Positions 24,339 to 46,480 of a stretch of DNA of 64,000 nucleotides are shown here, piece after piece. Origin of the DNA: Amyelois transitella (lineage: Eukaryota; Arthropoda; Insecta; Lepidoptera; Pyralidae); contig NC_083512.1 of the NCBI RefSeq assembly GCF_032362555.1, forward strand, positions 4,886,001 to 4,950,000, in the 5' to 3' direction. Below the pieces are notes generated by a model. It saw only the letters and a program-made list of their open reading frames with translations, was not told where the DNA came from and ran no database searches. The stretch's first letter is position 1, and each line of letters begins with the position of its first letter. The translations under genes were made by a program, and so were the position numbers.

Positions 24339-26864
24339 AAATTCAATCAATCAAATCAACTATCTTTATAGGCGGACCTAATACTAATAGCATTGTCTCA
24401 CAGTCTAACAATGGGTCTACTTGATTTGAACAAGTGATACTACAGAAATACTATTTACAGCCAAAAAGGTTGCATATATACATACGTATTTTACGAGATT
24501 TTTACATTCACCGCCACAGGTGTTTAAAAAGTAAATAGGAAAATACAGGTATATCTACTGGTTCCGTTACCGGGAACTTTATGGTACTAAAGACTACTAA
24601 CGAGTGCACTCGATCCACCTGCAAACATAACGTATACTTTTTACGAGAAAAGTACAGAGGAAATGTATTGATACCAATTTGTAGAACCGACAGAACAATC
24701 GAGAAAGTTGATAAAAAGTTTAATCCGGCGGGTGTCGCCCCGCGAGATCCGATATAAATTGACTACATTCGTTTTCAACTTTTATTCGCTTCTCGACTTA
24801 CGTCGTGTATCTTTTTTAGGATGTATTTTAATTAGTTACGAGAAATATTTTAATAAGTATTTATAACTTAATATTTTTATAAGTTATTATCAAAATTTAC
24901 TACCTGGTACTCAGAAATGAACATTCAAGCGCGGACGCAATATGGGACAGGGTCAAAAATTAGAACATTTACGAGTGGATTTGCCTGAGTGTCTGATGGA
25001 GTACTCGTATACCGTACCTAACATAACTACCTCTTTTGTGTGTGTGTTTTTTTTTTGTGTTCTAGTCTTCAATTAAAAAATGAAAGGTTTATATATAACA
25101 TAATAAAGTGTTGTTTGGAATCATATCAGATTTTTATTTTGAAAATTTTGGATATATGTATTTTGTTCTCTATAATAAACTTGTTTTCTAAGTTTCAAGA
25201 AATCAGCTAAAAGGCCCCAAGTTAACCTCTCTGAGCGCTTACAAATTCGAGGGCAAAGTGGAGCGCATTTTATCCCAGGACAAATTAAGTGCTATTCGTT
25301 AAATCTGGGCGCGATCTGTCACGGGATTAAGTAGGAAGTGAGGTAGAATGTGCTGTGGTAAATAGCGGACATTTTTTTAAATCAGGCCAGACTAAGTCGT
25401 CTGAATTTTTGTATTGAACTACTCGGTGAATTGTTTTAGGCGATTATTTTATAGACTTTATTTTTTTGTTTTAATTTTTTTTTTTTTATTTAGTTTTATA
25501 GTAAGCTTTTATTTAAAGTTTAACAATAGTTGAAATATTTAATTTTTTAAAGAAAATAATTTACATGTTAAACCGACTTGTCAGAAATTTCACTTTCGTG
25601 TTTTTTTGCATTCCGATTATGACAATCAATTTATAAAATCAGACCACGAGTACCTTTTACAATTAAAAAACCTAGCTGAAGGTGATTGAATAATTGATAA
25701 AATTACATACACGTATTTGTCAAGTTAATCATGAATGGTTTAACATGCAAACTGTTCGTGTTCCGAGCTTCATTGACGTCATAACATAACTTTTGAAAGT
25801 AGGTCACGTATTCAATTCCGCTAGCACTGAAAAAAAAACCGTAATATCACGTTGAAAGTCGGCCTTGTGGCACGCTAGTCAGCCTTTCTCAAAGTGGGCG
25901 ATAACGCCCCCTTGTAGCGAAGGCTAAACGCAATATGAGCCTTATAAGGCTAATGAATATGAAGGCAGAATGTGTGATTTTTTTGTCTGACAAGAAGGAA
26001 TTTTCGCATATCATCATATTGAATATTGGTGAAAAAGGTTTGGCTTGAACTATAAATCGAATGAAAAAGTACATGGAAGGTAAAAGTTTCATGCAGAACT
26101 ACCTATAATATAATCACTAAAAGAATAAATTATAAATTTGCTTAATATTTTCACAGAAAAGTGTCACTTTCTGACACGTCTTGGCAAACTTCGAAAAGCT
26201 TCAAAATACGCTAGATTGATGAGATTATTAGTTGTGAGACATCATGAAATATTTATTTATAGGTAGTTTGACGTAATATATTTCGTTTATATAAATGCAA
26301 ATACGACATTACTCATAAATCATTAATTATCGTAATTCATTTAAAAGTGTTTCAAACCGCTGAGTAAGCTAGTTAAATCTGGGAAAGCTCTCTGGGAAAA
26401 TCCCCAAGAGCACATTCGGATAATATGCATTTCTACATGAAATTTAAATTCAGAAATATTTGAAGTGATATACCTCTGAGCTAATCCGAGGTTGAGTGGC
26501 GCGGAAATATAATTTAATTTATCATGTAAGTAGTTTTTTGATGGCATAAACATGTCTACCAATTAAAATTTAGATGTGTTACTCAGAACTACATAAAGAG
26601 TCGGTTAGAAATTAAGTATATGACTTATCTGACAGTCACTAGATATAGCACCAGTTACTTAACGTTACTAAACTCGCCAACTCGTATAACAAATGCCAAT
26701 TAAGGTCAATCTTCTTGGTGGGGAAACATCTTAACAACTAAGTAATAAATTTATGTTTGTGGTCATGTCACTAGAAAATCTCTTAAAAAAAATCTGGAAT
26801 TATATCCAGCCAATTTTATATCAACCTGCATGCTGGCATTACTAATAGTTCTTTTTTATTTCAG
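24339..26864. other. Gene-free stretch upstream of the channel gene
   Basis: A TATAAA at 24,753-24,758 within a GC-richer patch (24,725-24,800) is a possible promoter element. The first coding exon of pHCl begins after an acceptor, so at least one non-coding exon lies upstream, but I cannot place it. Poly-T and GTGT runs occur near 25,030-25,060 and 25,460-25,490. Confidence 0.4.
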
Positions 26865-26874
26865 ATGTCCTAAT

Positions 26875-29800
26875 ATGGGTTGGTCATGCGTGGTGGCACG
26901 CGCAGTGGCCTTTTTACTTACGTTGAGCATGGTTTCAGCTCTCACATCCGACATGTAAGTAAAAACTAAGTAACTTTTCCTATATTATATTGATAATAAT
27001 CTAAAAAAGTTAATAAGAGTGCAATAAACCTGCTTTGAATATTATTACGCAGAGTCAAACAAGATTTATAAGAGACAACTAATAACTACGACATTTGAAA
27101 TGTCCATTTGAAGAGACATATAGATTATAGTCTGTATGACGTTGACGAGTATAACGTGGAAAAAGCGAATGTGACAGGCGACGAAGCGGACTTAACGCGC
27201 TGGGCACCGGGGCACGCGCAGCCAAGCGTGAACACACCGCTCCATTTATAGACCCTGTACTAAATTGTAGGTAAATGTATTGTGGACCCTTCTCCGGTAT
27301 CACTAAACTGGCGAATAAGATGTTATCAAAATGTTTCATACAAATGGGAGATGGGTTCGATGTCAACCTTATAAAAAATATGCACTTATGACCATTCTGG
27401 TCCTTATTATTACAACATCTATTTCAAGAGCGATCAAAATAAAAATATCTCTTAGAATACTGATTTTACAATGTTGGCTATATTTAACGATACAGAAATC
27501 AGTAGTTTTTTAAAGCAGTAGTTATTTTACTTGAAGATTAAACGAAGACGGTGTTTATTTTCTCGAACTACTTTTTGCTAAAGTGGAACGTTGTTGAGCA
27601 AGTTCTAAACTCCCAACTTGGAAACTACGAATACGTTCGCCTAAACAAATTGCCTTAGGTATACATACATATCGTGCAATAGTTTGTCCTCTATTTACGT
27701 ACAAAGTTGCCTATTCATGAGACCAATTCACAATACATGTTCGGAACTCGGTGATTCAATCAGATAGCATTGTTTATAAACTAAATTTGCTACTTCTGTT
27801 TGCTATCTGTGGTATTGACTATATATACCTTCTAGGTATTGATCGTAATGTGATTGTGATTGCAAGTAAAATACAATTATCATGCACTTTTTGGGTTGTC
27901 ACTACTCCGTAACATAGTTCTTACGTTAGATTTGTACTGTTTATTAACATATTAAAAGGCTTTCGTAGAGGCAAGGTAATAAGTGCTAATCTAAAATCAA
28001 TACTAAGGCTGCCATTCTATGTTCCCACGCGCTTAATTTACCATGATATACGACATTGATAAATTGTTCCTAATGTCTGGAGTTTTTGGCTAATCGTCCA
28101 CACGCCCCGTTTCGCAATCTGAACGATTTACCCGAAACTGAAAAATATCATACATCAATTATTTGTATGGTGTGACTAATAACGTTGCAATTAACTTGAT
28201 TACAGATTTGCTGCGGGAAAGTCGGACAAAGAGATACTGGACAACCTACTCAAGAATTCCCGCTACGATAAAAGACTGCTTCCACCTGTAGATGGTAAAT
28301 ATTTTTACGACTTATACACATTTTATAAGCTGATTTTTATTGTTTGCCAATTGTAAGTATTGGATGTGAGATTAGATATGTGATATTGTAGATCATAAAA
28401 TATTGATGTAATATTGCAGATCCAGAATTCTGTTGTGGTCTTACGTCGCCCAACGACTCTCTGGCTCAAAATAAAGTCGGATTCTCTTCGCTCCGGCCTC
28501 GCTCGCACAATCGCGGTGCGTTGTGTTCATGTTTTTGAAAAGAGAAATCCTTACATTTTCCTGCATTATATTATGTAAACCGTAGCGTCTTTTATGTTAT
28601 ATTACAATCAACTCTTTGCACGCAACTCCGAGTACCCCAGGTTGGTTCCTATCACACGCAATTGTAGATATCCTACGCTTTAGTTCTTACTGCTGTTGTG
28701 GGTCACCTTATTGTTTAGTATGATTAGAATATTTGTTTCAACTAAGATATGCACTTTGACATTATGTTATAGGCAATAGACCTTACCTTTTTAGAGCCAA
28801 GATTTATATGACTATCTACTCTTGTAACTTAATTCTTTTTTGTGTGAAAACAATAATACAATATTCTGGATATGTCCTCATTTATTTAATTTAATTCAAA
28901 ATAATGACATGAAAAATCATGCATTTTATGTTTATATCACGCTTTGTTACTGTCAATGATTTTCTCTTTTCACAAACATTAAACACAATTGGATTAATTT
29001 AATTATTGTTCAGAGAGATTCTTTAATCAATGATTTTTATGATTATTTTTTCTTGTAGAATTGGATCTGCCAATATGACAATAAAACAAAACTGTTGATT
29101 GATTTTGCTTTTTCTTTCTTTCTACCCTCCAAAGATTAAGTTGAGATATCCATATAACACGAGTGGGTACCATGACTTTAGCACTTCTATTAGCAATAAG
29201 CATGCCTTATATGTGACTGTGCAATTTATAATTACTACGACTTCTCTTATATATCATCGAATGTCTCTGTATTGGTTTTCAGGTGTCCTCACCGTAAATG
29301 TTAGCGTGCTACTTCTTAGTTTAGCATCTCCAGACGAATCTAGTCTTGTAAGTTCTGCGTTAATATCTTTAGATATTAGTTTATTTATTTCTTTATACAT
29401 TTTTTTATTCAATATTTTTTCTTTACCTTTGAGTCCACGTTAAACATGAGCAACTGTTTCAGAAATACGAAGTGGAGTTTTTACTACAGCAGCAGTGGTA
29501 CGACCCGCGACTTCGTTATTCCAATCAGTCGCACTACGACTTCCTTAACGCCATTCATCACCACGAAGACATTTGGCTGCCAGACACATATTTCATTATG
29601 CACGGGGATTTTAAGGTAAAAAAATAATTCTGGGTGCATTTTATAATTTCGGAAATATTTTGTTTATTTTTCACTGCAACAATCGATTTATTGCAATGTA
29701 TTAATACGAATGTATTAAAAATGATGTAGTAAAATGAAGAAAAAATTAAATAAAACTGAGTTCTCTAAAAATTCTTTTTATAATTTTGGCCGCACTAACT

Positions 29801-32800
29801 GCACAAAAGTCAGATATAATGATCGCGAACACTAAAATTTATAACAAAATTGTGGTGAATATCTCAAAAACCGCTTTACCTACATATGACTTTATAAATT
29901 CTATTGGACTAATCCTACCTACATTATAAATTTTATCAAAGTCAGACTAACGGTTACAAACACACAAACCTATAAAAAAAATCCATGTTGATTTGCAGAA
30001 CACAGAGCGTGTTTCATCTTTTTCAACACCTTAAAATGTAATTGTTTTCAGGATCCGATAATCCCTATGCACTTCGCGCTGCGTATATATCGCAACGGCA
30101 CCATCAACTATCTGATGCGGCGCCACCTAATCCTCTCCTGCCAAGGAAGACTCAACATTTTCCCTTTTGACGACCCATTGTGTTCATTTGCCTTAGAAAG
30201 TAGTAAGTAAACATTAAATATTTCGTTACGTACTGTCTAATTGCAAAGTGTTTCGTACACTAAAATAAACATATAAATGTTTTCAATATCCGAAAGGTTT
30301 AATATGAAGATTCTATATATACATTTGAGACCTTGCTGAACTCATATTATGCAAATAAAAATTTGAATTTCAATTTAAAGCTAAAAATTTACTAGGTAGG
30401 TAAAAGCTCGTATTGGCAAAGTGAATGTCCACGAACCAAAATTTATGTACTTATTTTTTTGTCTATTTATGTTTATTATTTTTTATTATTTAATTTATTT
30501 ACGTAAATTATCTAAGTCTACTGGTACGTTAATCCTTACACAAAAAATACATGAATTTTTCTGTTTTCATCAATTACAGTATCATATGAGCAGTCAGCGA
30601 TTACTTACGTGTGGAAAAACGACGAGGACACTCTACGGAAATCGCCCTCGCTCACCACCCTCAACGCGTACCTCATACAGAACCAAACCATCCCCTGCCC
30701 CATAAAGGCTAGTTGGAGAGGTAACGAACGATACACCTATCTCATCAGACATTTCAACGCTTACATACACACATTTTTTATTTTAACCTTACGAATTCGA
30801 GTAGACTAGACTCCCAACTCCTTTTGTTTTACAAGCACAATCCCGTTTTAGCACAAGATCAAAAGATGTTTAAGCAAACTGAAATTCTGATTAACTCTTT
30901 TCAGCTTGGTCTTGATTTACATAAAAAGGTTATTTTTCAACTTTCTTTTACATCATCGACAACGACGTAGAAGCTTCTAGTATGTGTTATGTAACTATTA
31001 GTTAAACCTAAATTAAAATCGTGATTTTGTGGTTTGTGTTAGAGCATAGTTAGCAATTTCGCATGTACATTATAGTGACATGATTCCGTGATTGTTTTGT
31101 GTCTAACACTTAAACAGTTGAAAAGTAGTATACCTAACAGTATTTTGAATCATTTGAAAGTTACATTTTTACATATAGAAAGAATTTTGAACGTAGAATG
31201 TAAGACTTTGTTAACGTCTTTGCAAGCAGCTGATGGTATATCACTTTACGAAGACGATGAAGAGCTGACATGTAACCTTTGCCAGAGACGCTTTGAGGAG
31301 CAAGGTACTTGAGTCGCACCGGACGATTCACCGTTCAGTCCGGTGACGTCGTATTTGCCGTATATTTTCCGCTTATGTGTGAGTAAAGGCGTAATTGTGT
31401 TACAAAACTGATTGGTGTAAAATATCGGACGAGATCTGTCACAGGATGATACAGTGTATTCACAAGCCATTTTATGTTTCCAACTCATCTTCCCATTGCA
31501 TGCATGTAAACTGTACTCGTATAAGTATGTTACCGCACGTGTTTGATATATAGTTCGCTGTCTTTTGAAAAATTTCATTGACGCTAGAAACTACATTTTC
31601 CAGCATATGAACACAACACGCATTACTCATACATTCAGGATTGTAGTCAATTTATTAGAAATTGTTTTAATGCATTAATGAACAATCGATTGACAAGGCC
31701 TCTGAATGGAGTTATTTGGAATTTTTACATCCACGCCTTTACCTAACCTCCACCACTTTTTTGTTCCAACAAAATTATAACAATAATTGATAATTTCTAT
31801 CAATGTTTAGGTCCATATTGTACCTAACAATATTCACTTCACAGGTAACTACAGCTGCCTTAAGGTCGACCTAATATTTACTAGAGACCGAGCGTTCTAC
31901 TTTACTACAGTATTTATCCCTGGAATAATTCTGGTGACCTCCTCCTTCATCACATTCTGGCTGGAATGGAATGCAGTGCCAGCCCGTTCCATGATAGGTA
32001 AAATATGTGGCTGGCAATTGGGAATGCTCTCGGTCTTGCATTTAACTTTCTCTGACTCTGTAGATGTGGCTGGGGCTGTCAATAAACACGCTGATTTCCT
32101 TTCGCAGGTTCGGCTTGATCGTTGCATATATTATAATTCATACAAACACTTTGTAGCGGACACACATGCAACCCTGTATTTTATGTATTATTTTTAGATT
32201 TGCTTCATATTTTTAGGTAATTACAGCTGTCTCAAAGTGGATCTCATCTTCACGCGGGATAGATCTTTTTACTTCACCACAGTTTTCATTCCGGGCATCA
32301 TTTTGGTGACATCATCGTTTATTACTTTTTGGCTGGAATGGAATGCAGTGCCTGCTAGAGTAATGATAGGTTGGTGTATTATTTTAATGCTTCCGCGTTT
32401 CAATATATCAAATCATATAAAATTAATTTAATCAATAAATTCAGCAGCGAAATCAATTATCCGAAGAAAAGCTGCGATTTATTTTGCAATTAAACATTAA
32501 ATGCACGAATCACTAGATTTAAAAAAAATCATAATTATGCATGATCTAGTTTATATAGAACTTTTTACTTTGTTTATTAAAATTCTTTTTTTAATTAGAA
32601 CAAATTTTTGGCACAATAGATTTATTGCAACGGTTGTTCAATGAAGAAATTGGGGTGACAATATTTTTATGAAAAGGATAAAACTGATTGTCTGTCGGGC
32701 AGGTGTAACAACGATGTTGAACTTTTTCACAACGTCAAATGGTTTCCGGTCGACCCTGCCGGTGGTGTCCAATCTCACGGCTATGAACGTGTGGGACGGA

Positions 32801-35800
32801 GTCTGCATGTGTTTTATCTACGCATCTCTTCTAGAATTCGTATGTGTCAATTACGTCGGAAGAAAAAGACCACTACACAATGTTGTGTACCGCCCCGGAG
32901 AAAACCCCGTCACACAGGTGACTTTCATTATAATTATTTTCCCCCTCTCTGTGTTATAAATCCAATAATACGTTATTCGATGTTGTTCTTAGCTATGTAG
33001 CGGTTTGTATTTTGCACTACCTCTATATAAGATATGTGATGAATGTTGTTTTCCATGTCAAATATACGAAAACATAACTGATCAGCATTGTGTCTTTAAC
33101 TATTTGTACTTAGCATATCGATGTTTGCAATCATTAGCAATCTACTGATGACATTTTTATGAAATAAAATAAACATATTCTAAGTACGCAATATTATTTC
33201 TTCACCTGTTTCTATTAAAAATATAAGAAAGTTATATTATACATTTACAAAATCGCACTATTTTGAGTTATCTATCTACTTACCCAAATTTTTACTTTTC
33301 ACTTAACTTTTAATTTACGAAGGAATTATACATACATATCATTACGTCAATATTCCTTGCGGGGCAGACAGAGCCAGTCTTGAAAAGACTGATTCTACAT
33401 TTTCCATAGGATAATTGTCTACAATTTTTTCTTGCTAATATCAAATTTTTTGTTATAAATTATGAACTAATTAGGCTTCGAATACGTGAGCTCTTCTAAC
33501 CAATCAAAGTATAGCGAAATTATAATTTAATGTGATGAATATTTGAAATAAATTTTTACTTTCTGAAAGGAAATTTTTGAAAGTTAAGAAAACCAAGTAG
33601 GTAATGTTTTTAAATCTGTGAAAAAACGAAACTCTCACTAACATTTAACCTTCCTAACGTCGTGATGACATGTCAGTTATTCTATTCTATAATTTATTTG
33701 ATTGTAATTTTTGAGATGTAATTCAACTCCTTCGTGAATTATTTATTTTTCTTACATTTTGCAATGTTTTTCTTGCCAACAAAACAGCATGACACGTATT
33801 ACTGTTTATCGGTTCCAATATTTTACTTTTCAAAAGGCATGCTTCTTTAAGTTATATTGTTATTGCATGAATGTATTTGGCTCATTTTAATTTTAAACTG
33901 TTTACCTACTGGGTAGGCCAGAATCATATCGAATTTTCTTTGCAATTAATTATCTACACAAAATTTGATTTACTTTCTGAATTACTATAAAGACTATTTT
34001 GTGTGGCCATAGTCTAATTCTTACTTTTAAAATTGTCATTACATCTAATATATATTTATTGCTTTTCACATATGTAATTTCAGCTCATGGAAATTATATA
34101 CATACGTTTTATAAAATTTATTATATACGTAATATTTCAAAATTTTATAACAAAACATTGCAAAGTGTGATCTGATTGATATTTGACTCTGAGCTACGTC
34201 TGACATCCAGTCACAAGTTACATACTTACCTACAACACAAAAAATACTTTCTCGTATCTCGAAAAGTACTTATATCAAAAATTCCAAATCTGCATGTAAT
34301 ATATTGTGCGTACGAATATTGTGTATTATATTAATCTGGCCACAACAATCTAGTCTATGTCATCACGATTGCACAACTCATCCGTCACGAGTGAAAAATT
34401 GTGTGTGTGATGTGTTCGCAGCGACTGCCCGCAGTCCTCAGCAGAATTGGCATTATACTGGCCAGCCCCCTGGTAAGAACCTTCGCCACTGTCATTGGCA
34501 CTTTCCTCATATTGAGCTGTTATATTTCTTTGCCACGAGTTATGATGTCATCCATAAACAAATATTTCATAGAAGTAACGTCCACTATCTAGAAATATTT
34601 TTTTACTAATTGTACTTTCCTATTCTGCTTATTATTACTAAACTTTAAATTCCAGTCATAATATAATTAATTTGCCCTATTTACACATAAGGTTGTAAGT
34701 ATACTTATGCCGTAAATAGATTTTATTTTAAGAAATATGGCAGTGAAAATCTTACGCAGCACATTCTATGAAAGCATGCATTCTTGTTTCTAGCCTTAAA
34801 CATCGGAATCGTTTTCTTTATGTACCCGTTTACATTTTTTTTTTAAATTATACTTTTACTTTAGTTTTAAGCTTTCCTTTAGTTCTTAAACTAAACCGTC
34901 TGAATTTGCATGTCGAAATAAATTTTAAGTCACGAGTTTCTATTTTATGACGCACAATGTTGACGCCTATCACGTATTATTTATATTTATAAAAAGAAAT
35001 CTCTGATTTAATTTTAACACAGATCATCACAAATAATAAAGCCGAATTACATTCATCAATTATGCAAAGGCATACGGCGGCTACTCACTACATAAAGCTA
35101 GACCAACACAACTAAATCAAAAATCAACTACTTTATATCTATTAATCGACGCTTTTTCAGCTTATTTTTAATTAGCTGCAACGAATAGGATGATCTGCAG
35201 CTTCTGCACACTTCAAAACGAAGATACTATAACGTTACATTTCTTTTAATGTTCATAATGTAACATCTTCATGCTTTAGCTATGAATAATATATTTTTAA
35301 ATGTTAGGAGGCGATCGCATTCCTACAATGGGCTAGGTCTGACACTCCCGAAGACGAGCCAAGTGTAAGCGGCGCCGTAAGTGATGAAGTGCATTGCCAC
35401 ATCATACCTTAGTCTGCATCCTGATCACCTGTTATCATGAAACTAACGCATTCTCTTATTTAACGCTGCTTTTGGATTGATGCAGCCTGTAAGTACGCTC
35501 AATAGTTATCTTAGCTCATATAGTAGCTCATATTGGTACTAATAAGAGATTTATCATTTCCATTAATTATTATTGATTAATTAGCAACTTGATGACTAAT
35601 CATCAAAAAATACACAGGCATTGTAAAATTTTACTTTACCTTATTTTTACAACTAGGTGTCAACTAAAGAAAAGAACCTTCAAAAATGCTTATCTACCTA
35701 TAAATATTTTTCTTATTCTGTGATGATTGAATTTTTAAGCATGTGATATGTATAACTTAAGTGATATTACATAATTTTTTTAATCCAAGTCGTCATATTT

Positions 35801-36558
35801 ATCCTCTATTTCATTTAAGAACATGCATTGTTACCCCTAACGATTATGCTTTGCCTCACCCTTGTCATTATAGTGGCACACATTTCAATAAAACCATACG
35901 CCGACAGTTAATTCCCAGCCATTCTTTATTAGATGGCTTAAAATAATTTCAGGGTGACAAAAAGCGGGAGTCAACGGGTGCAGCAGACCTAGTGACATGT
36001 ACTGCTTGCAGCGGGGCCCCTGGCCCTTGCACTCACACAGCCAACAATGGAGGCGTATCAGAAGTAAGTTTCGTGTTATTCTTACTTTGTCTATTCACCA
36101 AGCTAATTTTTTCCGAGAATTGCCATCGGGTTTATTCAGTACAAAATTATCGATAAAATTTATTTTTGCAAACATTTCGAGCTGTAACTCTGCTAGTTTG
36201 TTAATGTTTTATTTATTATCATTAAATAGTTCACAATATCATGTATTACTTAGATTAAGAACTATAATTTAAAATCTTTATTGGAGTACAAGCACTCTTT
36301 GTTTATATCAAAGCCTCCCTGAGTTATCATTCGTCAAAATCACATTTACACAACAAAAACACGTAGTTGGCTTGCAATATCATCATTCATTTGCCAAATA
36401 ATTTCTTTCAGCCATGTTTCGTCCAGGTTCGCAAAAAAGAACCCCCGCACCCGATCCGAGTGGCCAAGACCATCGATGTCATCGCCAGGATCACCTTTCC
36501 CACTGCCTATGCCGTGTTTCTTATATTCTTCTTCATACACTACAAGGCGTTTTCTTAA
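26875..36558 (+). CDS. pHCl: pH-sensitive chloride channel (Cys-loop ligand-gated anion channel, pHCl type)
   Basis: Pentameric Cys-loop anion channel of the plasma membrane. In the insect pHCl family extracellular pH gates a chloride current. Coding exons: 26875-26954, 28206-28294, 29283-29347, 29463-29615, 30052-30202, 30580-30720, then 31845-31997 or 32217-32369, then 32703-32917, 34422-34472, 35308-35376, 35953-36063 and 36412-36558. All have GT/AG borders and matching phases, giving 474 aa. Visible features: signal peptide at residues 1-22; Cys-loop C159-C173 with FPFDDPLC; second disulfide pair C219-C231 as in glycine and glutamate channels; M1 about 245-266; anion-type PAR motif entering M2 at 272-274; M3 about 300-322; a variable cytoplasmic loop; M4 about 451-472. 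VTSSFITFWLEWNAVPAR is what identifies pHCl rather than GluCl or RDL. The exon with the start ATG has an acceptor before it and a minimal upstream ATG (ATG TCC TAA), so 5' UTR exons lie further left. Confidence 0.88.
28420..28515 (+). CDS. pHCl: Optional pHCl exon, 32 aa in the N-terminal extracellular part
   Basis: It is bracketed by TATTGCAG and GTGCGT and is 96 nt long, entering and leaving in phase 1, so it can be included or skipped without a frameshift. It lies between the exons ending at 28,294 and starting at 29,283. It has no stop in frame and encodes a segment beginning DPEFCCGLTSPND and ending RPRSHNR. It is GC-rich compared with the introns around it. The insertion falls after residue 56, before the first beta strand. 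Inclusion in mRNA is inferred from splice signals and phase. Confidence 0.65.
31230..31304 (+). CDS. pHCl: Candidate optional pHCl exon, 25 aa with a CNLC motif before M1
   Basis: The segment runs from an AAGCAG acceptor pair (a NAGNAG site, so the start may be 31,227 or 31,230) to a GTACTT donor at 31,305. It is 75 nt and phase 1 to phase 1. It would insert an acidic stretch (LYEDDEELTCNLCQRRFEEQ) between W225-R226 and the conserved GNYSC in loop C. The sequence is open, GC-richer than the intron, and a stop follows just past the donor. The CNLCQRRF part looks like half of a C2H2 zinc finger, so a captured exon or pseudogene piece is the alternative. Confidence 0.45.
31845..31997 (+). CDS. 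pHCl: pHCl M1 exon, copy A
   Basis: It encodes the end of loop C, M1 and the start of M2: GNYSCLKVDLIFTRDRA at one end and NAVPARSMI at the other. It is 153 nt, phase 1 in and out, with donor GTAAAA. Copy B, 219 bp downstream, has the same length and phases and differs at two residues only. Splicing both in would duplicate M1, so they are read as mutually exclusive. Confidence 0.85.
32217..32369 (+). CDS. pHCl: pHCl M1 exon, copy B
   Basis: It has the same length and phases as copy A. By my count about 40 of 153 bases differ, almost all at silent positions, while 49 of 51 amino acids are the same. The changes are A243S (before M1) and S275V, directly after the PAR motif at M2 position 1'. 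Its donor is the weak GTTGGT, against GTAAAA in copy A, which could bias the choice between them. Confidence 0.85.
33327..33393 (-). repeat. 3' fragment of the short retroposon in a pHCl intron
   Basis: Minus-strand AGTCTTTTCAAGACTGGC, then TCTGTC, then AAGGAATATTGACGTAATG and the ATGTATGTATA tail. Only the last quarter of the element is present. Confidence 0.75.
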
Positions 36559-39500
36559 TGCTGCCTCTACCTTCAATTCTCCTTCTGGCTGCTTTTGTTA
36601 TGAACAATCGTGTATTTTACGCGTCACAGAACTCACAGGTATGCAGATTTTTCACCAGTTTTTGAGTGTCTACACATGTGGTCAAGCTAACTTGTGAATG
36701 CGTTAAATTATAAGGGGACATTCAGCAGATTACTATAATTTTGCTGCTTTCTATTGTTGATAGACTAATATAATCGGTACCTAGTCATATGATATTTTTT
36801 TCTACAGGCTTTGAAATAGTTTTCATAAATTAATATGACTGTGACTGTTTGTAATGTACCTGTGAGGCAGATATACTTTGTTGTGAATACACGAAAACTT
36901 ATGATAGGATAAAGAGGGATCAATGACATAATTGTACGAAAATTTCTTGTATCGATAAAAATAGGTCGATTCGTAAGTAATGTTTGAAAACTACGAGGAG
37001 AGTAAACTTGAGGGAAATATATCCCGCACTAAGAAATCTATTTCAAACCTAGACACACCGAGACAGTCACAATACTATTTTAGAACTTTAATTTTAATAT
37101 ACTTCAAAATCAAAAGACATGAAACATAATTAGATTAGATTTAATCACCATAGCAGAATTAGTATGTACACGTTCATAAGTTGTGATAACGTTGTAAAAA
37201 TGAAGTTGCTTATAAATGGAGGACTCCAATTGATTGAGATTTAAAATAAGTTTCAGGTTCATGTATAAACAATATTTTAATTAGTATATAAAGCTCAAGT
37301 CGTTATTATAATTAGAAATTTGATGATAAATGTATCGAAAATGTTGAGTTTAGAAGTTTCTGTTTCGCTTACGTTATATTAATTTACCATGAACATGCCT
37401 TTTACATTTCAATGTTATTTTTTGCCTGAAATACTCTTATATAGTACTTAATTGATAAATGATTTTGATTGTAAATAATGTTGAAATTATTATAAAACCT
37501 CGATACGTAAGGATATCTTTTACCCTAAACACGTTACAAAGTGTTAGTTCTACTTGTAAGTATCGTAAAATTGTGCTGTGAGACCATGCCGTCATCCTGT
37601 TTGTTGCGTAAGTAGTTTAAAATATTTACTTCGATATCGTAAATGTACTAAGATGTCCTACTACATGTGTTATTTATCATATAAAATCTTTCATTTTCAA
37701 CCAGTGTTGTACTGGTTACGACCTAAGTACTAGGGAATCATGAAATCTCAATTATGCATGGTTCATGCAAATAACGAGCATATGAAATTAAGTTTGGACA
37801 GTTATTTAGATTTACACTGAAATATAAATTTAAGTGTAAACAACGACACGAAAAAACCAAATTGTCGAAAACAATTTTCATTCCATTAATACAACATCAT
37901 CGATTCTATGCCTTTTGCTTGATAAAGAGCGGACCAAGGAGTCAAATGTTTTGAAACATAGATTTTATATACTAAATTATTAAACATACAAATTAAGTAG
38001 AACCGCAAATTGACTGTGCTTTAAAATCAAATTACTTCTCTTTACTGACTTTTTAATGACTGCATTGCACATGAAATATCTTTCATTTTAACGTCAAATA
38101 TAATTTATTTTTTATGAAAAATCAATAGCACACCATGCAATAACAAAAACGAGGCAATCCATATTTTAATTAAAAAGGTATCTAGAAGAAAATGTTACTT
38201 ACCATGATATGGAAATATTTAAAAAAAGTTAACCTTACCAAAGTTATAATTATTGTTATTGCTTTTGTAAGCTTATACTTTTTATTATTTTTCAAGGCGC
38301 GTTTTCTCTGATCTCTTTTGATTTACGTAATATAATGAAAAAAATTTTCTTAATCATATAAAAAATTTACAATTTCGACCATTCCCATTTTCTTTTTTGT
38401 ATAATTACTTTAAATACAAAGTGATACTAATTTAAATTTGCAATGTTTTGTACTTACTAAATAAATTGTAAGATGAAAAATAACATATCATTCGCTTTGT
38501 AAGACACATTCTTGTACCTATTTATGCTAAATTACCTGTTAACCAAATCTATATATTCTATGCTGCCTTTATCTTCCTACGTATATTGTTAAAATTTAGA
38601 TAATTTTGTGAAATATACCTGAAAAAGCCTTGAGAATATTTATTACTTGTGATATCTTTTCGCTATATTTTTATATACTTACCTAAACATATGAACTAAT
38701 CAACAGAGTCGATTGTAGAAAATTAAAAGTGTCGCAATGTTAGAATAAACATCTCAAATAACCAAGCGTATGTTGGTATGTATTGGTATGACAGATGGGT
38801 ATATAAAAATAAACGTCAGCGTATACTTAAAATTATACGTTCCTAACTCAAAAAGGAACTCTGTAGAAAAATTCTTGGTAAAAGTGTATTCGGTGCTTAT
38901 ACGTAAAGCTTTCTATTCGCTTAAACTATTTAATTATTTATAAAACAATATTTTATTATTTACAATTTTATTAGAAGGTAAGATAAGATTTACCTGTGTA
39001 ATGTTTTTGAAACATTTTACTCAGTACCTACTTACATGTATCATCTCAAATTGTTTGTTCAATCTATGGACTATTCCATAATTTAATTAATCTAGCTATA
39101 CCTAAGTGCTCGTGAAATATTTTATTTAAATTCATTTAACCTATTATTACAAATTCGAGTAACTATAACAGTACTTTTTTATTTAAAGAATAAGTTTTTC
39201 GTATGTTTACCTAAGTTACAATTGTGTTTGTTACTTCACGGGCAACGATATAAGTAACACAAGTATGAAGTTTGTATTTTAGAGTGCCATTAGCTATCAC
39301 AGTATCTTTATTTTTTTTAATCGATCGCAATTGTACTTATACAAGGGTGCTCCCATTACATTTCTTAAGTACATATGTAGGTACTTATACATCACAGTAT
39401 CATTTGAAGCCTAAATATGTCCCTAGTTTTACTCATTAATACGACGTTCAATTGTTTAGTTTTTAAATTTACAATGTCTGTAAAAAGTAAAAAAAAATAT

Positions 39501-42384: not shown

Positions 42385-43580
42385 ATGATGATAGTGTTTA
42401 ATTTTTGGGCAGCTTTGCAGTGGTATTTAAGGCCATTTATAAAGTGGTTCTTGCGAAAAACTACAAGGTTATGTGAACTGCAAAGAATATGTTACGGCGA
42501 AAAACCAGGGGCTGCAAGGGCGTGTGGCGTGGAAAGGTCGCTAATGTTATCCCGAACGAAAGATGTAAAAGAAGTTGTTTCATATTTAGATACAATGGTA
42601 TCAGAAAAAAGGTTTTTACCACGAAACTTTCGCGATATCCTAGATCCATCAATATCTATTATAATTCGAACAAAACAAGTAAATCCCAAACTGCATGGAT
42701 CTTTCATTGTTTCACTTAGAAGATGTATGGAACAAATTTGGTTATACAGGAGTTTAATGGATGAAGTTGAAGAAATTCGTTGCATCCAGTTTGATAGCAA
42801 TAATCTTGAACATGAAGAGAAACTTTTAAAGCTATGGACACTTCTTGCTCCAAATGAACCATTGGAAAGCCGAGTTTCTAAACAATGGCAGGATATTGGT
42901 TTTCAGGTGAGTAGACAATGGTATGTGGAGCTATTGTGACTTAACCGATTCATTGCGGAGGACGCCGATGAGCGTCATTGATTAAAAGAAATCAATGACG
43001 CTCATGTGCGTCATCCGCAATGAATGAAAAATACAATTTCTTTCAGGCTTAAAAAAATAATTAGCAAAAGTTTGATTTGACATCAATTATTTACTGTAGC
43101 TGCATAAGTTAATCACATGAATGTTGTTTGGTTCTTTCATTCCTATTTTCTTTTCAGGGTGATGATCCAAAGACTGATTTCCGTGGAATGGGTTTGCTTG
43201 GACTTGAGAATCTGTTGTTTTTTGCAACTGAATATCCACAAGCATCAAGCCATGTTCTTAGTCATTCACATCATCCCAAATATGGTTACACTTTTGCTAT
43301 TGTTGGCATCAATCTTACTTCGATGGCATATTACCTGCTAAAAGATGGATCTGCAAAAACATACATGTTCAACGCAAAGCAACACCTACCTAATATGAAT
43401 TTATTCCATAAATTTTACTGTTACCTTTTCTATGAATTTGATAAAATGTGGATTGAATCTAAACCACAGAATATCATGGAGTTCTCTATCATATTCAAGA
43501 AATTTGAAAATGCTGTGAGAACCGAGCTTGCTGACCCAGCATCAGTGTTTAGAATAAATATTGAAATAGACACAATATAA
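42385..43580 (+). CDS. ELMOD2: ELMO domain-containing protein, ELMOD1/2 type
   Basis: ELMOD proteins are GTPase-activating proteins for ARF/ARL small GTPases, acting at endomembranes, mitochondria and lipid droplets. Two exons, 42385-42906 and 43158-43580, join in phase 0 to give 314 aa, close to the roughly 290-300 aa of animal ELMOD1/2. The N-terminus carries the family's KWFLR..T..CELQRI segment (about 20-36). The ELMO domain covers about 115-270. The GAP signature begins at W168 (WQDIGFQ) and continues across the splice junction as GDDPKTDFRGMGLLGL; R183 is the expected catalytic arginine. A second ATG follows directly after the first. An AATAAA at 43,679-43,684 is a plausible 3' end. The paralogue (1, 2 or 3) is not settled; the N-terminal motif argues against ELMOD3. 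Confidence 0.85.
42948..43025. repeat. Near-perfect 36-nt inverted repeat in the ELMOD intron
   Basis: Arms 42,948-42,983 and 42,990-43,025 pair at 33 of 36 positions around a 6-base loop (AAAAGA). Mismatches are at arm positions 13, 19 and 20. The hairpin sits 41 bp after the donor. The size fits a miRNA-precursor-like stem or a minimal palindromic transposon. Confidence 0.85.
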
Positions 43581-43684: not shown

Positions 43685-43999
43685 TATTCCTTTTATCTAA
43701 CACCACTTAGCAACTTGGGTGCACCTTCCTTAGTTAATGTTGTTTGCACTATTGACATATTTATATCAATACACATAATTCACAAAACTAGTCTAGGAAT
43801 GTATGGTTGAGAGTTATAGACCACATGGAAAAGTATACCTTTTTCTGTTAATATACAAACATTGGTGAAGAATTTTGTTAATTAAATACATATTTAATGT
43901 GTTATAGTTCTAAGTGGGGGTCAATATATGATGTATGTTTTTGAAATACCAGACTATGCTAGGTCAAATCATACACATAATAAGACACAAAAATCTGGT

Positions 44000-46480
44000 C
44001 TGAGACAAATTCAGTAACGGTGACGCAACACATCCTTGCCTAACGCCTTTCTCAATCTTAAACCACTCAGTGTGCGCTCCGTTTATCCTGACACAAGCAC
44101 TCGAATCCTCATATAAGGATTTCAGTGCTCGTATTAAGAGACTGCTCACCCCATGCATAGAAAGTGCTGACCACAATTCATTCCTCTCAACTCTGTCATA
44201 GGCCTTTTCCAGATCTACGAATGTGCAATAGACTTTTTGACTCTTGGCCAAAAACTTTTCGGCTATGCACCGCAAGGAAAAGACCTGATCAGTACATCCC
44301 ATTCCCTTTCGAAATCCCGCTTGAGCATCCCATATTTTGTCATCAGTTTCATTCCTGACTCTATTAATCAATACCTTAGCATACAATTTGCCGAGGACGC
44401 TAAGCAGGCTTATACCACGATAATTTTTGCAGTCCAGCTGTGACCCTTTTCCTTTGTAAAGTGGCACGATAACAGCCTTACACCAATCTTTTGGTACTCG
44501 GCCGCTTCTCCAACACAAATTGAAAAAGCAGTACAACTGACTAGCTACTACGCCTTTTCCTGCTTTAAGCATCTCGACCGACACTCTATCACACCCAGCA
44601 GCCTTTCCCGCTTTCATACTCTTAAGTGCTTCCACAATTTCGAACATTTCAATTTCGCCTTCCATCTCATTCTCTTTTTCTTCGCTATAGCAGAAATCTT
44701 TCTTATTTCCTTCCTTTTTTTCAAATAAACTTTCAAAATAGTCCTTCCATATCTTTAGTACACATTCTTCTCCTTTCACAACGCTACCATCCTGGCATCT
44801 GATCCTAGTCAGCTCTCTGGTTATAGTATTTCCTCGGGCTGACCTTACGGATTTCCAGAATACTTTCAGATTTGACTGAAAGTCTTCTGATAGCCTTTTA
44901 TCAAAATCCTCTTTATACTCTTCTTTCTTTCTAATCACAGCTTTCTTAACCAAATCTTTCATTTTCTTATATTCCTTACGTGCTTCATTCACATCTTCAT
45001 CTATAACCTCTTGCATTCTTAAGTTAGCTTTTGCTGCTAACAAATCCAGCCATGCTTTCTTCTTTAATCGCACAAGTTCTTGCACATCTTTACTCATCCA
45101 CGCATTTTTGTGATTTTTTCCTTTCCTTCTTCTACTTACACCACACACTTCAACAGCTACTTTCACAATTCTTTCTTTAAATTCCTTCCATCCATCTTCA
45201 ATATCGCTCATTTCATCTAAATCTTCAAATTCGTCCTTCAGTCTATTAATATACTTCTTACCTACATCCATATCTTGCAAATTTTCTACTTTTACTCTTT
45301 CCAAAGCGCTGGTTTGCTCCCTTACCCTGTGCCGCCAGCGATTGAAGATACCCCTTATCCGGGATATCACCAGTAAATGGTCCGAGTCAATGCCAGCACC
45401 GCGATATGCACGGGTATCCAGCACTTTGTTCTTCAATCTTTCATCTACAATCACAAAGTCTATCATACTTTTTAAAATACCTTCCACTCTTGTGTAGGTG
45501 TGGATCTCTTTATGTTGAAACATTGAGTTCGACACAAAAAGATCCCACTCTAGACAAATTTCTAATACACTTCTTCCATTATCATTCACCTTTTCGTCAC
45601 CAAACGCACCAAGCACCTTTTCATATCCATCACGCTTTACACCCACCCATCCATTAAAATCACCTAACATAATAATCTTCTCATTTGCCTTGGTAACTTT
45701 CAATACTTCTCTTACACTATTCCAGAACTCCTCGTTTTCGCTTTTTGCTGATGTTGTACCCCTCGAACAGGTGGTGCATAAACACCTAGAACGAAGATCC
45801 GAGTGATTCCAACTTTCAGCCTAATCCATAGAAGACGAGGGCTGACACACTCATACTCATTCACGCATTCAGCCATTCGTGCAGAAAGAATTAGACCGAC
45901 CCCTTGACAGCCTCGGCTGGTACTGGAAATTCCAGACCAATACGCCGTGTAAGGGCCGTGCTGCGTCGCGTCGCATCCTTTCCGCTTCGTTTCATTCACG
46001 CACAACACATCCAAACGTCTTTCATCCATCATCTGGCATACTTCCTCAATCTTATCCTTCATTCCTCCTCTTACATTCATCGTCGCAAAGCGGCTTTCAG
46101 CAGACCGCATACCGCTCCCGCCGGGAACGAGACGTGATGGGGTGCGGACACCATCGCCGCCATTTATATGCTTTTTAAGGTTCATAATGCGATTCCCACG
46201 AGACGCTAGGGAAAAATTTTGTCCGCCCCAGCAGAGCCCCGCATGCCAGGGTAAGGCTAGCCATTACCTGGGGGTCGCCCAACCCCATGGCGGAAGTGGC
46301 ACGCTCGAGACTAGGCTCGCCCCTAGCCATGCATCCATCGGCGCGGCAGACCTTAGATTGGCAGGGATTTACATTAAAGAGGAATCCCAAGTCTATCCCT
46401 TAGTCGGCTCTTACGACATCCGTGGGAAAGAGATGGAGTGGTCCTATTCTTTTGTAATGGTGCCGGGAACCACACGGCAC
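44000..46480 (-). mobile_element. LINE with intact 5' end, endonuclease and partial reverse transcriptase; 3'-truncated and frameshifted
   Basis: A non-LTR retrotransposon on the minus strand. The 5' region (46,480-46,186) begins with the GTGCCGTGTGGTTCC head also found in the short retroposon. An open frame at 46,185-45,712 gives the first part of an APE-type endonuclease: ATMNVRGG, then LCVNETKRKG, then LGVYAPP. Near 45,750 the frame shifts and continues at 45,703-43,964 with MLGDFNGW and DSDHLLV of the endonuclease, a basic linker, and reverse transcriptase motifs GISLLSVLGK, AGFRKGMGCTDQ, FVDLEKAYD (motif A aspartate) and KGVRQGCVASP. Recognisable LINE sequence stops near 44,000-44,030, before the polymerase YADD/FADD box. 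Losing the 3' end while keeping the 5' end is the reverse of ordinary LINE truncation. It is inactive. Confidence 0.88.
46376..46480 (-). repeat. 5' head of the short retroposon, present as the 5' end of the LINE
   Basis: About 105 bp are colinear with the 5' part of the copies at 16,480-16,580 and 24,240-24,338 (head, ATGGTGCC, AGGACCACTCCATCTC, GTCGTAAGAGCCGACTAAGG, CTTGGGATTCCTC). They then pass directly into the LINE 5' UTR at 46,375. Confidence 0.85.

Follow-up and report, generated by a model that had tools for sequence, protein, structure and literature searches.

A tandem pair of old M1 exons, most likely used as alternatives, in the pHCl gene of the lepidopteran Amyelois transitella

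The window analysed here is a stretch of 64,000 nucleotides of the genome of Amyelois transitella (assembly GCF_032362555.1, contig NC_083512.1, positions 4,886,001 to 4,950,000), and it contains on its + strand a complete pHCl gene at 26875-36557, whose coding exons, numbered 1-11, were located by means of open frames and GT-AG splice sites. The features on which the following account depends are listed below, with a slash marking the exon boundary in the donor sequences:

26875..36557, + strand: pHCl gene model, exons 1-11; the isoform with exons 7a and 9a has 446 aa
30580..30720, + strand: exon 6, the upstream partner of the exon 7 pair; donor GAG/GTAACG
31845..31997, + strand: exon 7a, comprising pre-M1, M1, the M1-M2 loop and the start of M2; A243, S275; donor TAG/GTAAAA
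31998..32216, + strand: intron separating 7a and 7b, 219 nt; ATGTGGCTGG twice; open in frame for 66 codons past 7a
32217..32369, + strand: exon 7b, the equivalent segment; S243, V275; donor TAG/GTTGGT
32703..32917, + strand: exon 8, the downstream partner, with the remainder of M2 and M3
34422..34472, + strand: exon 9a, an M3-M4 cassette (RLPAVLSRIGIILASPL), 51 nt
35308..35364, + strand: candidate exon 9b, an acidic M3-M4 cassette, 57 nt, recognized by splice sites and frame

The protein has the architecture of a cys-loop channel, with matches above cut-off to the Pfam families Neur_chan_LBD (E 4.3e-33) and Neur_chan_memb (E 1.2e-18), and the PAR motif of anion channels precedes M2 in the form NAVPAR in 7a and 7b alike. 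With exons 4-8 as the query, the solved structure that scores highest is PDB 21wy_A, "Ligand-gated ion channel pHCl-A" (E 3.2e-167, 558 bits), followed by a GluCl chain at 165 bits, and within this comparison the gene product is closer to pHCl than to GluCl, glycine receptors or GABA receptors. Judged from its sequence, the gene is a pHCl, by class an insect pH-sensitive chloride channel, as the preliminary description had named it. Besides the exon 7 pair, exons 9a and 9b are possible further splice forms of pHCl, as is an alternative acceptor 15 nt upstream of the last exon (36412-36426), use of which would add PCFVQ (compare SCLLQ in Aethina). Intron 6 holds a 77-codon open frame (31079-31309) with a weak Pfam match below cut-off, and a scan of 26000-38000 against Rfam gave no match at the gathering score. 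Downstream of pHCl lie two open frames matching the ELMO/CED-12 family (42385-43580, + strand) and, on the - strand at 43964-45820, an open frame with endonuclease and reverse transcriptase domains of the non-LTR retrotransposon type.

Exons 7a and 7b are neighboring and homologous, each 153 nt long and of phase 1-1, and each is bounded by an AG acceptor and a GT donor; the exon 6 donor follows 30720 and the exon 8 acceptor precedes 32703. The two copies differ at 40 of 153 bases, namely 33 at third, six at first, and one at second codon positions, and 49 of their 51 residues are identical, the exceptions being A/S at residue 243 and S/V at residue 275. A recount agreed in every number checked with the preliminary description, which had reported tandem 153-nt exons of equal phase with a 219-bp gap and about 40 base differences, and the swaps that it had placed before M1 (A243S) and at M2 1' (S275V) fall on residues 243 and 275 of the rebuilt protein. 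When 12 exon peptides and one intron frame were compared with the window by tblastn, a search that would easily miss copies of the shortest exons, neither a third M1 copy nor any other duplicated exon was found; 7a recovered 7b at E 4.4e-31, and the remaining non-self matches all had E values of at least 0.31.

The silent sites of the pair are saturated. Among the 46 informative codons, defined as those able to differ silently at kept residues, 33 differ and 13 are identical, against 15.9 identical codons expected from independent draws with the codon use of this gene; the synonymous distance is correspondingly undefined under NG86, and its maximum-likelihood value of 23.7 is not meaningful, whereas dN is 0.027-0.036. 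The aligned repeat stops within 2 bases of the exon boundaries, beyond which the 60-base flanks match at chance (19/60 with a null mean of 18.0, and 14/60 with a null mean of 16.9). Because the silent sites are saturated while 49 of 51 residues are kept and the flanks are at chance level, both copies must long have been kept as coding sequence, and flanks at chance identity also speak against a recent or assembly duplication, so that a haplotype or assembly duplication of exon 7 can be ruled out. The exon 7 duplication is thus old, and both copies have been retained as protein-coding under strong purifying selection, which upholds the earlier claims of an ancient origin and of tight constraint in the face of heavy base divergence.

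Despite the overall silent saturation, one stretch of 23 nt is identical in the two exons (31958-31980 and 32330-32352). It includes five consecutive identical informative codons (p 0.11 with independent draws, 0.03 by permutation), and outside it the codons differ somewhat beyond expectation (8/41 the same, 14.1 expected, p 0.024); these tests are post hoc and are not relied on. No relatives of the locus were confirmed among 11 + 43 pattern stretches from virus and prokaryote contig collections, a search with little bearing on insects.

The two swaps can be placed against solved channels. At the aligned places, A and S, the residues of 7a, are found in PDB 21wy_A, the only pHCl chain with a solved structure; S and V, the residues of 7b, are found in the GluCl chain PDB 3rhw of C. 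elegans (KREFSFYL, PARV); and the glycine receptor chains compared have G and V. The 7b residues therefore occur in a working anion channel. Identities to 21wy_A are 51/52 residues for exon 7a, 49/52 for 7b, 65/65 for the compared part of exon 8, and 120/148 columns for the extracellular stretch of exons 4-6; the segment covered by exons 7 and 8 is nearly frozen across species, which makes the two changes in 7b notable. In the usual M2 numbering, P-A-R occupies -2' to 0', and it is 2' rather than 1' that lines the pore. By this numbering residue 275 is M2 1', at the inner mouth; residue 243 is at the outer end of M1, a region through which binding is coupled to gating. The preliminary description had put residue 275 next to the selectivity filter, which holds in the sequence, where it directly follows P-A-R, but the neighbor that lines the pore is 2'; for this reason a direct effect of S275V on conductance is something that we infer, and residue 275 may instead influence how helices pack at the inner mouth. 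The 7a and 7b isoforms may differ functionally in gating, conductance, or the response to macrocyclic lactones.

The reading that we favor with considerable confidence is that 7a and 7b are old tandem duplicates and genuine coding exons, of which a transcript most likely takes a single copy between exons 6 and 8, so that two isoforms arise. An ancestral pHCl exon encoding pre-M1, M1, the M1-M2 loop and the first M2 residues would have been duplicated in tandem long ago, the cell would most likely join either 7a or 7b between exons 6 and 8, and the two resulting channels would differ solely at residues 243 and 275. Since 153 is a multiple of three, the reading frame is kept with 7a alone, with 7b alone, with both, and with neither, and frame and nonsense-mediated decay therefore do not enforce the choice. 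In translation, a product with both copies would contain M1 twice and one with neither would lack it; for this reason either/or inclusion is the only use likely to give working subunits, and the use of the two exons is very probably mutually exclusive. Exons of this kind are recognized by reads that connect either copy directly to the flanking exons, skipping its neighbor, and do not link the copies together (PMC5740500, in the part of the article available).

As to what would impose the choice, the familiar means of exclusion do not fit the locus. A frame shift does not arise with exons divisible by three. The available part of the same article sets the steric limit at a distance of less than 50 bp from donor to branch point (PMC5740500), whereas the candidate branch A at 32183 lies ~185 nt from the 7a donor, and the 219-nt intron would have space for a lariat formed there. 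A U2/U12 mismatch finds no footing either, the introns being GT-AG and none of the donors resembling, by eye, the U12 consensus. The consensus for donors is GTAAGT. In a crude test of U1 pairing, the 7a donor scored -6.7 and the 7b donor -5.9 kcal/mol, both middling among 12 donors that ranged from -4.9 to -8.1. The 7a donor is predicted to be the most open of the 12 (unpaired 0.80, the others 0.11-0.71, and 7b 0.30), a prediction that has no control.

One further proposal, which is speculative and which we would sooner doubt than accept, joins these threads: the pair may constitute a two-site switch at the ends of M1 that changes both residues jointly from the pHCl type (A, S) to the GluCl type (S, V), sets the coupling of pH or macrocyclic lactones to the inner gate, and has long been kept by splicing without the help of frame, steric hindrance, or evident RNA pairing.

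Competing docking and selector pairings in the RNA could instead set the choice, for instance through the 8-bp helix TGCCAGCC/GGCTGGCA at the 7a donor, together with more copies of GGCTGG in exon and intron. This is unlikely: perfect 8-nt complements do flank the 7a donor, four copies of TGGCTGG lie between 31958 and 32336, and the openness predicted for that donor would suit such a mechanism, but none of the pairings tested around exon 7 in this one sequence rose above chance. The longest helix between 7a and the intron (8 bp) is not above chance (p 0.14), and neither is the 60-nt hairpin at the 7a donor (p 0.18), the exon 4 donor being the only one of the 12 below 0.05 (p 0.026); the 201-nt fold gives z 0.29, also not above chance, and six segment pairs tested for RNA pairing gave p 0.375-0.85 (40 resamples each, with the last 350 nt standing for intron 6). 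TGGCTGG has six + strand copies window-wide, and its two copies inside the 7a/7b intron have a shuffle p of 0.0005 for a motif chosen after it had been seen; for any repeat of that length in the intron, p is 0.07.

The 7a/7b intron has some further features of its own. The exact repeat ATGTGGCTGG stands at 32005-32014 and 32064-32073, TGGCTGG being present in both exons as well, and the first 110 nt of the intron (31998-32107) have 45% G+C, against 31% in the other 109. An extension of 7a through the intron was considered and rejected, the open frame of 66 codons having P 0.05 by shuffling and matching no Pfam family, and so was an extension to the donor-like CAG/GTTCGG at 32107/32108, which would lengthen the exon by 110 nt and disrupt its reading frame.

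That both exons are used, though not strictly as either/or, with some transcripts carrying both copies or neither, is improbable in our estimation. All four combinations are in frame, every splice site is GT-AG, and the distance of the candidate branch A from the 7a donor exceeds the 50-bp steric limit (PMC5740500, as far as the available part of the article goes), all of which would permit such use; a subunit with M1 doubled or absent should, however, not work, and the strong constraint on 7b implies its regular use in a functional protein. It is hardly credible that one of the two exons is a duplicate without use, or an artefact of haplotypes or assembly, for although the 7b donor GTTGGT departs from GTAAGT and pairs less strongly with U1 than that of 7a (within the range of the donors), the splice sites are intact, the saturated silent sites, kept residues, and chance-level flanks argue otherwise, and an artefact would have produced near-identical copies.

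Alternative use of 7a and 7b, as we propose it, would be of a well-known and ordinary kind, swap exons being familiar from cys-loop channels. The copies of exon 8 in the nicotinic receptor subunit alpha6 differ from one another at more residues than 7a and 7b do. That exon is alike in that its alternative copies alter residues of TM2 in a channel of the superfamily to which pHCl also belongs (PMC2064938), and its alternatives have been termed mutually exclusive (PMC6393475), but alpha6 is an acetylcholine receptor subunit in which the number of copies varies, only 8b being given for Bombyx (PMC7017565); these statements come from the portions of the articles available. Rdl exons 3 and 6 and GluCl exon 3 are likewise alternative exons in insect cys-loop anion channels, which alter the ligand-binding domain, whereas 7a and 7b alter M1-M2 (PMC2064938, available part). 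For pHCl itself, the available text of the beetle surveys describes two M3-M4 insertions that share one site, an insertion in loop C, and shifts of splice sites (PMC2064938, PMC7017565). The variants 3, 3a, and 4 of beetles, fly, and bee belong to the same gene, and similar M3-M4 cassettes are found here; as described in the accessible text, their insertions come from cassette exons or from a shift in splice sites, whereas 7a and 7b are a duplicated M1 exon. The seven predicted pHCl proteins of Aethina vary in the M3-M4 linker, and the available text on them does not mention an M1 alternative (PMC7017565). No alternative M1 exon in pHCl appears in the accessible parts of the two beetle surveys (PMC2064938, PMC7017565) or among the literature matches listed, as represented by titles and the beginnings of abstracts, a scope outside which the silkworm, fall armyworm, and Drosophila pHCl papers fall. 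Because the two surveys, as far as their accessible text goes, give no such exon, the pair may be limited to a lineage.

The first Drosophila pHCl paper is said to name three splice sites, and the silkworm pHCl study of Okuhara reportedly concerns a serine at position 275 or close to it; if the latter is right, the 7a/7b finding is already known. On balance, we think that the exon 7 pair, or its products, probably is in print. The part of the silkworm report available states that splice variants of pHCl identify a determinant of ivermectin sensitivity (Okuhara 2017, doi 10.1124/mol.117.109199), and its likeness to the present case lies in the same insect gene and in splice variants that affect that sensitivity. 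If the silkworm effect has already been assigned to residue 275, what the present locus would add is how the genome provides for it, through a duplicated exon, and how old that arrangement is.

According to the accessible part of one article, ivermectin and emamectin benzoate activate channels of the pHCl type (PMC11766477). Two natural isoforms set apart by just two residues, in a segment that, these residues aside, hardly differs from its counterpart in a pHCl whose extracellular part has diverged, would amount to a ready-made experiment on the residues that set gating and drug response, and the pair bears on how insects may alter the target of avermectin-type drugs by splicing.
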